Positions 39,796 through 53,294 of a DNA stretch of 53,654 nt are shown in pieces. Numbering within the stretch: position 1 is the stretch's first letter; every line of letters begins with the position of its first letter. The translations under genes were made by a program, and so were the position numbers. Location: positions 1 to 53,654 of the forward strand of contig CALHLB010000081.1 in assembly GCA_938034375.1 (NCBI GenBank). The letters are read 5' to 3'. This DNA comes from an uncultured Alphaproteobacteria bacterium (lineage in GTDB: Bacteria; Pseudomonadota; Alphaproteobacteria; Rhizobiales; JACESI01). The notes below the pieces were generated by a model, which was given only the letters and a program-made list of their open reading frames with translations, ran no database searches and was not told the origin of the DNA.

Positions 39796-40212
39796 CTATT
39801 GGCCACGCCCCATCGCTGTTTTCAAAAGACCCAGATTGGAAGTATAAAGCGATGTTACGGCTTCATAATCCATTTGATTAGACGCAATTTTCGACATTTG
39901 CTCTTCAAGAACAACGGAATTGCCATCTGGTGTGATTTCAAAAGAATCACTTTCAATCGCACCAGATGAAAGCCTTGACGGCGCCACACTTCCAGCAATG
40001 TGGTTTTTATGCGTTAAAAACGTCTCAAAACCACCCGATGATTGTGCTGAAGCAAGTTTAAGGCCCGATTTATCAAGGGGTTTCAATTCCATCGCCATAT
40101 AGCCAGGCGTTGCCGCATTAGCTATATTTTCAGATAAAACACCCTGACGTGCCTGATGCCACTGCATCTTATTTTTAAGCGCGGTAAAAACCGACAATCC
40201 CATAAAGTCCAT
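39796..40212 (-). CDS. flgB: Flagellar basal-body rod protein FlgB
   Basis: MDFMGLSVFTALKNKMQWHQARQGVLSENIANAATPGYMAMELKPLD. ATG at 40212 is preceded by GGGGAG at SD distance; the 40230 start in the track is a TTG. Confidence 0.93.
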   Translation of the reverse strand: MDFMGLSVFTALKNKMQWHQARQGVLSENIANAATPGYMAMELKPLDKSGLKLASAQSSGGFETFLTHKNHIAGSVAPSRLSSGAIESDSFEITPDGNSVVLEEQMSKIASNQMDYEAVTSLYTSNLGLLKTAMGRGQ

Positions 40213-40528
40213 CGCGATGCTCCCCAGCAATTCGCTTAGGTTAAAAAGATTCTAATCGCTCCCCAACCAGAATCATCATAGGAAAATCTTGCCTGCTTAT
40301 GGTTAATCAAGTGTTAACAACTAGGTAAGGATTGCCTGGCAAATCTTAATAAAATGCAAATTGGCAACACTTAACGAGATAAAACACAAGCGAATAAAAG
40401 ACCTGTTGCAACTGTTTTTTTAATAACGCCTAATGAAAACAAATTACAGATACATTGCTAAATCATTTAAAAATCATGGAACGGTTTAGAAAGCATCTTT
40501 TCATTTACGCCATATCAGGGCCAATAGA

Positions 40529-48586: not shown

Positions 48587-48604
48587 TTGGCATAGTTTCT
48601 GCTT
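48587..48604 (+). promoter_or_regulatory. Putative sigma54 (-24/-12) promoter of flgF
   Basis: TTGGCATAGTTTCTGCTT has GG-N10-GC spacing and a good match to TTGGCAC-N5-TTGCT; about 95 bp upstream of the flgF ATG. Confidence 0.6.
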
Positions 48605-48619
48605 ACATGAAAATGTGTC

Positions 48620-48677
48620 ATCCACTGGGGAGTGGGTAACACAAACCTGAACTGGGGAGTTCGGGTCACATTGGGGA
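48620..48677 (+). promoter_or_regulatory. flgF 5' leader with two GGGG-loop hairpins
   Basis: ATCCACT-GGGG-AGTGGGT (48620-48637) and ACCTGAACT-GGGG-AGTTCGGGT (48645-48666); a third ATTGGGGA at 48670-48677. Confidence 0.6.
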
Positions 48678-48698
48678 AAAAAGAAAAGGTGCTTCGTT

Positions 48699-49442
48699 AT
48701 GGAGAATGCACAGTTAATTACTCTGTCGCGTATATCTACGTTAAACAGACAAATGAGTGTTGTTGCCAATAATTTGGCAAATATGAATACAACAGGTTTC
48801 AAGAGCGAAAATATGCTCTTTGAAGAATATATAAGCCCTGTTGGCAGCGCTGAAAGTTTTGAATTCGGCGATCGCGATCTTAGTTTCGTTCTTGATGACC
48901 GGACAGTTGGCAATTTTAATGTTGGCGCTTTGGAAACAACAGGCAACCAGCTGGATGTAGCTCTTCAAAGTGAAGGTTTTTTTGCTATTCAAACCCCTGC
49001 TGGTGAACGTTACACAAGAACCGGTGGTTTTACCCTTGATCCAACAGGACAGCTCACAACCCATGACGGATTTCCCGTTCTTGGTGAAGATGGGCCAATT
49101 ATCTTTGATCCAGATGAAACAAATATTTCAATAACAGGCGATGGCGCCATTTCTGGAAGGGAAGGCGAAATTGGTCGCCTCCGTATTGTTACTTTTGATG
49201 ATCCGCAACAATTAGACAGAATTGGTAATAATCTTTTTGAAGGCGCTAATCCCCTCCTCGCAGAAACACCACGTGTTGTACAATTTGCGCGTGAACGTTC
49301 CAATGTTGATCCAATTTCAGAAATTTCCCAAATGATTGAAGTACAGCGGGCCTATGATCAACTGGCCAACATTATGCGCCAGCAAAATGATCTGCGCGAA
49401 ACTGCCATTCAACGCCTTGGCCGTGTCCAAGTTAACGCATAA
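48699..49442 (+). CDS. flgF: Flagellar basal-body rod protein FlgF
   Basis: ITLSRISTLNRQMSVVANNLANMNTTGFKSENMLFEEYI; C-terminal EISQMIEVQRAYDQLANIM. Confidence 0.95.
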   Translation: MENAQLITLSRISTLNRQMSVVANNLANMNTTGFKSENMLFEEYISPVGSAESFEFGDRDLSFVLDDRTVGNFNVGALETTGNQLDVALQSEGFFAIQTPAGERYTRTGGFTLDPTGQLTTHDGFPVLGEDGPIIFDPDETNISITGDGAISGREGEIGRLRIVTFDDPQQLDRIGNNLFEGANPLLAETPRVVQFARERSNVDPISEISQMIEVQRAYDQLANIMRQQNDLRETAIQRLGRVQVNA

Positions 49443-51271: not shown

Positions 51272-52042
51272 ATGCGTATTCATGCCTTATTTAAACACCA
51301 TGGTCGCCCAAAAAAGACTTTGTTAATCACCCTCACCCTTGCAACAGCTTTAACCGGATGTGGCGCGGCCAACCAATTATCCGAAATTGGCAAAACACCG
51401 AAACTTTCCGCGATTGAAGACCCAACGGCGCAACCAGGTTATAAACCCGTTAGTTTGCCACAACCAGCACCTGAACCAGCGGTTTATACCGCAAATTCTC
51501 TTTGGCGATCAAACGATCAATCCTTTTTCAGAGATGGCAGAGCCCGCCGTGTCGGCGACATTTTAACCATCAATGTTACAATCAATGATGAAGCCGAGTT
51601 TGAAAACACAACAGAACGCAACAAAACATCAAACCGAAGCTTAGGAGTTGGTACAGGGGTTTTAGGTTCAATTTTCAGCCTTATACCTGGCATTTCAGAT
51701 ACAAGCGCGGTTTTAAGCGCTAATGCCTCCAGCGATACAGAAGGTGAAGGCACAATCGAACGTTCAGAAGCACTCACAACAACGATTGCAGCCGTGATCG
51801 TACAACAATTGCCCAATGGCAACCTTGTTATTGAAGGCAAACAGGAAGTACGGGTTAATTTTGAAATTCGAGAGCTTGTTGTTGCTGGTATTATCAGGCC
51901 AGATGATATTCAACCCGATAATACAATTGAATCTTCTAAAATCGCACAGGCGCGTATTTCTTATGGCGGGCGCGGCCAAATAAGTACATTGCAACAACCA
52001 GGTTACGGTGATCAGATCGTTGATATTGTTGCACCATTCTAA
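51272..52042 (+). CDS. flgH: Flagellar L-ring protein FlgH
   Basis: Lipobox ALTGCGA; SLWRSNDQSFFRDGRARRVGDILTINVTINDEAEFENTTER. Confidence 0.96.
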   Translation: MRIHALFKHHGRPKKTLLITLTLATALTGCGAANQLSEIGKTPKLSAIEDPTAQPGYKPVSLPQPAPEPAVYTANSLWRSNDQSFFRDGRARRVGDILTINVTINDEAEFENTTERNKTSNRSLGVGTGVLGSIFSLIPGISDTSAVLSANASSDTEGEGTIERSEALTTTIAAVIVQQLPNGNLVIEGKQEVRVNFEIRELVVAGIIRPDDIQPDNTIESSKIAQARISYGGRGQISTLQQPGYGDQIVDIVAPF

Positions 52043-52165
52043 AAAGTTCAAAAAAGCTCCCCAGCCGTTCGCCTCCCCAATTGAGCGGCTAGAGGTTCGT
52101 TCGCTTCCCAATTGAACAACCTCAAAAACGGCACCTGTAGCCATAACTACAGGTGCCGTATTTTA
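52043..52165 (+). ncRNA. Candidate 3'UTR-derived sRNA downstream of flgH
   Basis: Hairpin 1 at 52063-52090 (loop GCCTCCCCAATT), hairpin 2 at 52092-52123 (loop GCTTCCCAATT), then a 13-bp terminator stem at 52128-52159; CTCCCCAG/CTCCCCAA elements complement the flgB and flgF leaders. Confidence 0.55.
52124..52165. terminator. Strong rho-independent terminator after flgH, probably bidirectional
   Basis: ACGGCACCTGTAG-CCATAA-CTACAGGTGCCGT perfect 13-bp stem flanked by AAAA and ATTTTATT. Confidence 0.9.
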
Positions 52166-53257
52166 TTAACCAATAGAAGAATTACGATCGGCAAGTTTTT
52201 TCTCGAAATGAAACTTAAACTTTTTACGGAAAAAAATATCAACACGTTTTGATAACGAATGAATTGGAATTGAAATGAGCAAGCTAAAAATACAAACCAA
52301 TAAACTTTTAGGAGCAAGCTCAAAAAATGATGGTGAAAAAATATAAGAAACAAAAGTTAAAATAGGAACATGAATTAGGTATATTGGATACGATAATTCT
52401 CCTAAAAATCGGTCAAAAGAATTTTTTTTCGTAGCATGAAAACAAAGTGGGGAAGAAATTATTAATAACATGATTAAAAAACAACCAGTAAACTGTGCTC
52501 CAAAATTATGAGCGAACCAATCCCATTTATAAAAAGAGTATGAAATTGCAAATATCAACGCCCATCCAATAAAATTATGAGCCCTGCCAATAAATATAGC
52601 TTTAAATTTATGAGCCAGCATCCCAAGACAAAATACAGTTAATTCATTGGGCATAAAACGATAATTCCATGGATCATGTTGACCAAAGGCGGAATACGTC
52701 ACAACAATTGACAGCACAGAAAATGAAAAAAACAACAAAATCACTCTTATTGATTTGATCATAAACGGTGCAAGAAGGTAAAAAGACAATTCTACAGGTA
52801 AAGACCATGCTGGTGAAATATAAAAAAATGGATGGAAACGATATTCTTCCAATGCAAAATTTGATGTAAATTCAATCCCATCGGGTGTTGGATGTGTGAA
52901 CATGGCCCAATCAGAGCCAAACAGAAGCAAATTTGAAAAAAGCAGAAATAGTTTTGCCGAAAAAGTAAACGGTGCCTGAATAATATTCCAAAATTCATTA
53001 ATTCCAATCAATTGCAACAAAAATATTGATACAATCAAACAGACCTAATACCCTGAAAAGATTCTCGAAAAACGATTCCAATAAAAATGTGCAGGATTTG
53101 CATATTTTGCTTCTGAGACCATGGCCATATAAAAACCAGAGAGAGCGAAAAAAGCTTTTACTGCAAAGGAGCCAGGTAATAAACTGCCCAAAATAGGAAG
53201 CGGGCCTGCATGCGCCGTTAAAACTGATAGCGCCAATAAAATTCGTATAATGCCCAT
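52166..53257 (-). pseudogene. Acyltransferase 3-family membrane protein interrupted by an in-frame TAG
   Basis: MGIIRILLALSVLTAHAGPLPILGS...FFALSGFYMAMV...NRFSRIFSGY-[TAG]-VCLIVSIFLLQLIGINEFW...; both parts share one frame (offset 219 nt). Confidence 0.8.
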
Positions 53258-53294
53258 TTAGCCCCAAGCCCAAAAATACTTAGCCCATCAAAAT

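Follow-up and report, generated by a model that had tools for sequence, protein, structure and literature searches.

What kind of RNA follows flgH, the final gene of the flagellar operon flgF-flgG-flgA-flgH, is the question raised by the stretch of DNA analyzed here (hereafter the window, 53,654 nucleotides of a 2.5-Mb genome). The genome is assigned to the order Rhizobiales/Hyphomicrobiales on the basis of its best named FlgH relatives. A first-pass annotation had proposed that two hairpins and a 13-bp terminator hairpin directly downstream of the flgH stop codon constitute a small RNA (sRNA) derived from the 3′ untranslated region (3′UTR), and all three structures were recovered at the positions given for them. 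Behind flgH (51272–52042, plus strand; stop codon at 52040–52042), the trailer begins with an element, E0 (GCUCCCCAGC, 52056–52065, plus strand; read as GCTCCCCAGC), that lies 5′ of hairpin 1 and overlaps it. Hairpin 1 (52063–52090, plus strand) consists of the stem AGCCGUUC/GAGCGGCU and the loop GCCUCCCCAAUU at 52071–52082 (letters GCCTCCCCAATT), and hairpin 2 (52092–52123, plus strand) of the stem GAGGUU(c)GUUC/GAACAACCUC, with one bulged C at 52098, and the loop GCUUCCCAAUU at 52103–52113 (letters GCTTCCCAATT). The loops had been described as almost the same; both are indeed C-rich, but the second reads CUUCCC rather than CUCCCC. The last structure, matched by a terminator scanner, is an intrinsic terminator-like hairpin of 13 bp (52128–52159, plus strand) with a weak U-tail (ATTTTATTAA). 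No promoter-like sequence was found in the trailer.

The predicted folding energy of the 123 nt trailer (−48.6 kcal/mol) was far below the mean of shuffled sequences (−21.9 kcal/mol; z = −8.96, with 0 of 200 shuffles as low), partly because the terminator is included. Across four species of the genus, all pairs of hairpin 1 and of the terminator are kept (100%), with three two-sided compensatory changes, and each species is also predicted to have a second C-rich loop, borne on a hairpin whose stem differs between species. An Rfam scan of the window returned nothing at the gathering thresholds, and the comparison with Rfam families suggested for the trailer thus yielded no match. Searches for FlgH relatives among viral contigs and for plasmid matches were likewise negative. 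Downstream of the trailer, between flgH and a dksA-like gene, lies an acyltransferase-like frame (52166–53273, minus strand) that appears broken into two overlapping frames (52166–53038 and 52998–53273, minus strand); several relatives have dksA immediately after the trailer.

Complementarity of the trailer to the leaders of flgB and flgF, also proposed in the first-pass annotation, was borne out when the trailer elements were compared with the leaders of the 46 open reading frames (ORFs) in the window, among which flgB was the best predicted duplex partner and flgF the second (−25.3 and −18.9 kcal/mol). The flgF leader, which we infer to extend from about 48613 to 48698 based on a sigma54-type −24/−12 promoter-like sequence upstream (TTGGCATAGTTTCTGC, GG-N10-GC, 48587–48602, plus strand), carries two hairpins with GGGG tetraloops in front of flgF (48699–49442, plus strand), the first gene of the operon and the one putatively regulated. 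These are hairpin A (AUCCACU[GGGG]AGUGGGU, 48620–48637, plus strand; core CCACU[GGGG]AGUGG) and hairpin B (ACCUGAACU[GGGG]AGUUCGGGU, 48645–48666, plus strand; core GAACU[GGGG]AGUUC). They are followed by a third unit of the UUGGGGA type, given as AUUGGGGA (AUUGGGGAAAA, 48670–48680, plus strand), which is able to pair with UCCCCAAU in the loop of hairpin 1. The likely Shine-Dalgarno sequence of flgF in the window is not a GGGGA unit. In this genome, CTGGGGAG sites number only 16, and of the stems carrying a GGGG loop, the longest two, at 7 and 9 bp, belong to the flgF leader. A further GGGG-tetraloop hairpin with a 6-bp stem (UUUACU[GGGG]AGUAAA, around position 1501 of locus L223, contig C17) was dropped, as it lies within the gene for an amino-acid ABC transporter permease, in antisense orientation. 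A weak Rfam match of the flgF leader to P11 (E ≤ 1) was taken as chance.

The flgB leader contains the perfect 10-nt complement of E0 (GCUGGGGAGC) and a short hairpin, UGCU[GGGG]AGCA (40218–40229, minus strand), shared by all four species compared in the genus. Its GGGGAG (40225–40220, minus strand), which precedes the ATG at 40212 by 7 nt, is likely to be the flgB Shine-Dalgarno sequence. Since flgB is on a separate transcript, any action of the trailer there would need to occur in trans. A second flgB leader hairpin (GAUUCU[GGUUGGGGAGCGAUU]AGAAUC, 40248–40274, minus strand) has a loop, GGUUGGGGAGCGAUU, that could pair with UCGCUUCCCAA in the hairpin-2 region over 11 nt, including one G-U pair; the genus's other species showed no such feature. 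We also searched genome-wide for the doubled CTCCCCA as an independent sRNA family. That idea was rejected, as matches in relatives were mostly scattered; in the genome containing the window, there were two matches, namely the flgB and flgF leaders on the opposite strand.

To place these elements in a wider context, we drew the leaders of flgF and the trailers of flgH from 80 named loci in addition to 41 Rhizobiales genomes, and counted motifs in 70 representatives (one per family or genus; trailers cut off at 200 nt). Leader GGGGA and trailer TCCCC were strongly associated, with 42 representatives having both, 3 the leader motif only, 4 the trailer motif only, and 21 neither (Fisher P = 5e-11); two loci counted as leader-only (L164 and L202) carry the trailer motif just past the cut-off. 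The same count in reverse orientation gave no association (0/5/9/56), and a blind scan of all 1,024 5-mers ranked GGGAG, GGGGA, and TGGGG at the top. The earlier claim that the C-rich loops are conserved while their stems diverge yet stay paired held for relatives well outside the genus, and G-rich loops matching them were found order-wide in the flgF leader. In the flgB leader, they occur in the window's genus only (with one weak likeness elsewhere), and flgB was therefore rejected as an order-wide target. Both halves are absent from Methylobacterium and some other Rhizobiales clades. In alphaproteobacteria of other orders, 40 families sharing the flgF to flgH gene order showed no co-occurrence (both motifs in 1, the leader motif alone in 4, the trailer motif alone in 8, and neither in 27). 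A comparable sigma54-type sequence precedes all 50 motif-bearing leaders, yet it also precedes 38 of 40 leaders from those other orders.

Motif counts were about three-fold higher than in dinucleotide shuffles for leader and trailer alike, and the motifs are predicted to be accessible. Trailer TCCCC was 82% unpaired in predicted folds, versus 29% for GC-matched pentamers, and leader GGGG was 53% unpaired, versus 21%. These results bear on the possibility that the trailer is an ordinary 3′ end, whose hairpins merely terminate the mRNA or protect it, leaving the C-rich loops partnerless. While the last hairpin is a terminator-like stem, as such an explanation would predict, TCCCC occurs 2.5 times per trailer in motif-bearing genomes, compared with 0.76 times in shuffles, is situated in loops, and is tied to the leader motif, making this explanation hardly credible. 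Instead, the trailer and the flgF leader are probably the C-rich and G-rich halves, respectively, of a two-part RNA element of the Rhizobiales.

If the halves pair, then changes flanking the core in one should be mirrored in the other, and several variant pairs conform to this. They include CUGGGGAG/CUCCCCA in the window's genus, Pleomorphomonas, and Bosea; CAGGGGAG/CUCCCCUG in Bradyrhizobium and its kin; and GGGGAAG/CUUCCCC in genomes near Devosia and one other. Stappia sediminis has CCGGGGAGC/GCUCCCCGG and Roseibium sediminicola UCGGGGAGC/GCUCCCCGA, with perfect pairs in both species (CCGGGGAGC/GCTCCCCGG and TCGGGGAGC/GCTCCCCGA, respectively). The longest duplex around the core averaged 8.5 nt for a genome's own leader and trailer, compared with 7.3 nt for swapped pairs (z 6.9), and the 5′ flank matched in 33 of 42 cases, where 22 were expected (P < 5e-5). 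The difference between own and swapped pairs is partly explained by relatedness. Own pairs retained an advantage when swaps were kept within ten clades (z 2.95, P 0.003), but were not significantly longer when the swap involved the single nearest relative only (P 0.10). Among the flank codes compared, A-with-U scored best; the A/U flank drives the signal and the C/G flank contributes weakly, and one code keeping A-U but not C-G scored slightly above the full Watson-Crick code.

Leader units and trailer loops could also be separate sites that bind proteins or ribosomes, with their complementarity a by-product of Shine-Dalgarno-like and C-rich composition. GGGGA does resemble a Shine-Dalgarno sequence, overall composition differs between clades, and changes independent of the tree are few: presence and absence are clustered, and independent pairs gave about three changes in the same direction and none in the opposite direction, too small a number to reach significance. 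On the other hand, flank variants change together in leader and trailer, and own pairs outperform swapped ones even within clades; many of the leader units are in hairpin loops well upstream of the start, and other orders with the same genes lack both motifs. We therefore regard separate, unpaired sites as very unlikely. Several G-runs in the genus may alternatively form a G-quadruplex in the leader, although this would leave the trailer unexplained.

The leader half of the putative pair is in part already catalogued. In Bradyrhizobium and Rhodopseudomonas, the flgF leader is the Rfam motif flg-Rhizobiales (RF01736, 88–125 bits). In several other families, RF01736 matches were weak; all 10 of the relatives' matches checked by tblastn adjoin flgF. 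To our knowledge, the motif has no tested function, and no mention of the trailer or any other partner was found in the literature searched, where two papers name the motif. Like flg-Rhizobiales, the window's leader has a sigma54-type promoter-like sequence upstream and lies directly in front of flgF. The layouts also agree, as flg-Rhizobiales has two hairpins with uGGGAg loops and then an AgGGGAGA unit at Shine-Dalgarno distance, and the window's leader has two hairpins with GGGG loops and a third GGGGA unit near the start codon. The GGGG tetraloops are a difference, and the window's leader falls below the 55-bit gathering cut-off, with no RF01736 match in the window at gathering and none over the leader at E ≤ 1. 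Given the shared place and layout without a score, the window's leader seems to be a diverged counterpart, and we do not file it as a member. RF01736 matches at three loci (L142:2171–2317, L157:2208–2341, and L133:2120–2274) run into the flgF coding sequence. The model thus includes conserved coding bases, and diverged leaders, such as that of Stappia, consequently score weakly, and the window's does not score at all. It is likely, from the co-occurrence of the two halves, that this orphan motif gains the trailer as its partner. Described in a 2010 computational screen by Weinberg et al. (PMC2864571), the motif would thereby acquire a specific partner, open to testing, at the opposite end of its own operon.

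Taken together, the trailer and the flgF leader probably pair by loop-loop contacts that exert negative feedback on flgF translation. The leader displays (U/A/C)GGGGA(G/A) in predicted hairpin loops, with the Shine-Dalgarno sequence itself often being such a unit, and the trailer presents UCCCC in several predicted hairpin loops. Each completed flgF-flgG-flgA-flgH transcript would supply trailer RNA, either clipped off as a 3′UTR-derived sRNA or still attached. By covering the flgF translation start, this RNA would lower synthesis of the rod and L-ring proteins. In the window's genus, the trailer may also cover the flgB start in trans, balancing the two rod operons. Repression is the favored sign because 25 of 49 leaders have GGGGA at Shine-Dalgarno distance and because, in the window's genus, such a unit is the likely Shine-Dalgarno sequence of flgB. 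The main text of a transcription-start paper on Bradyrhizobium does not mention flagellar genes. Feedback of this type would mean that, across the order, matched RNA loops at the 5′ and 3′ ends control flagellar rod genes post-transcriptionally, including in well-studied genera (Bradyrhizobium, Rhodopseudomonas, Stappia, and Devosia).

The opposite sign, whereby trailer-leader pairing opens the leader or makes the mRNA more stable, restricting efficient translation to complete transcripts, is equally compatible with the pairing data, and leader hairpins could hide the start region in some species. Pairing at units placed as in half of the leaders should nonetheless block ribosomes, and we deem positive control quite unlikely. 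With regard to the route of repression, a processed 3′UTR sRNA and a 5′–3′ contact within one mRNA would fit the flgF sequences equally well. A strictly cis arrangement, in which the operon mRNA bends back so that its 3′ end contacts its own 5′ leader and controls translation or decay (via RNase III) with no sRNA involved, would resemble icaR of Staphylococcus aureus, where translation is blocked when UCCCCUG in the 3′UTR pairs with the GGGG Shine-Dalgarno region of that mRNA (PMC3868564). The partner leader is in the same operon throughout the order, and the Bradyrhizobium pair CAGGGGAG/CUCCCCUG contains the icaR heptamer UCCCCUG. However, leader and trailer are more than 3 kb apart in one mRNA, the flgB leader of the window's genus has a GGGGA unit as its Shine-Dalgarno sequence on another transcript, and work on OppZ of Vibrio cholerae excluded cis pairing in favor of a processed sRNA (PMC7398697). 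An exclusively cis mechanism is thus doubtful. Only tentatively do we extend the feedback model to a Rhizobiales-wide riboregulator, i.e., a multi-loop RNA, released where the flgF-flgH operon ends, that would form several kissing loops on flg-Rhizobiales-type leaders and, in the window's genus, regulate both rod operons in trans, such that completed transcripts set the supply of rod proteins. If so, flg-Rhizobiales would be the receiver half of an sRNA-target pair.

Several known systems resemble parts of this arrangement. Tandem C-rich hairpin loops are shared with the CcsR/cuckoo sRNAs of alphaproteobacteria, for which the loop motif CUCCUCCC is typical. The trailer lacks CUCCUCCC and an Rfam match, and has CUCCCC loops and flagellar neighbors, whereas CcsR/cuckoo RNAs adjoin DUF1127 genes (PMC10253847); the likeness is best read as analogy only. 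In Escherichia coli, UTR-derived, sigma28-dependent sRNAs from flagellar transcripts act in flagellum synthesis (PMC10578931), but these are gammaproteobacterial, and we do not claim homology to the trailer. Beyond the shared heptamer, icaR differs in having a single site for a single gene in a Gram-positive bacterium, compared with several hairpin loops at both ends of a four-gene operon that co-vary order-wide. It pairs at the Shine-Dalgarno sequence, a placement of GGGGA seen in about half of the leaders counted above but not in the window's flgF. OppZ and CarZ of V. cholerae are RNase E-processed, Hfq-dependent sRNAs that come from an operon's 3′ end and exert negative feedback by pairing with a 5′ region of that operon (PMC7398697). 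Their sequences are unrelated to the trailer. The trailer is similarly complementary to the 5′ region of its own operon, and an hfq gene is present in the window's genome. The element proposed here would therefore be of a known kind, either 5′–3′ UTR pairing or a 3′UTR-derived feedback RNA, and what would be new is a co-varying partner for an orphan motif.
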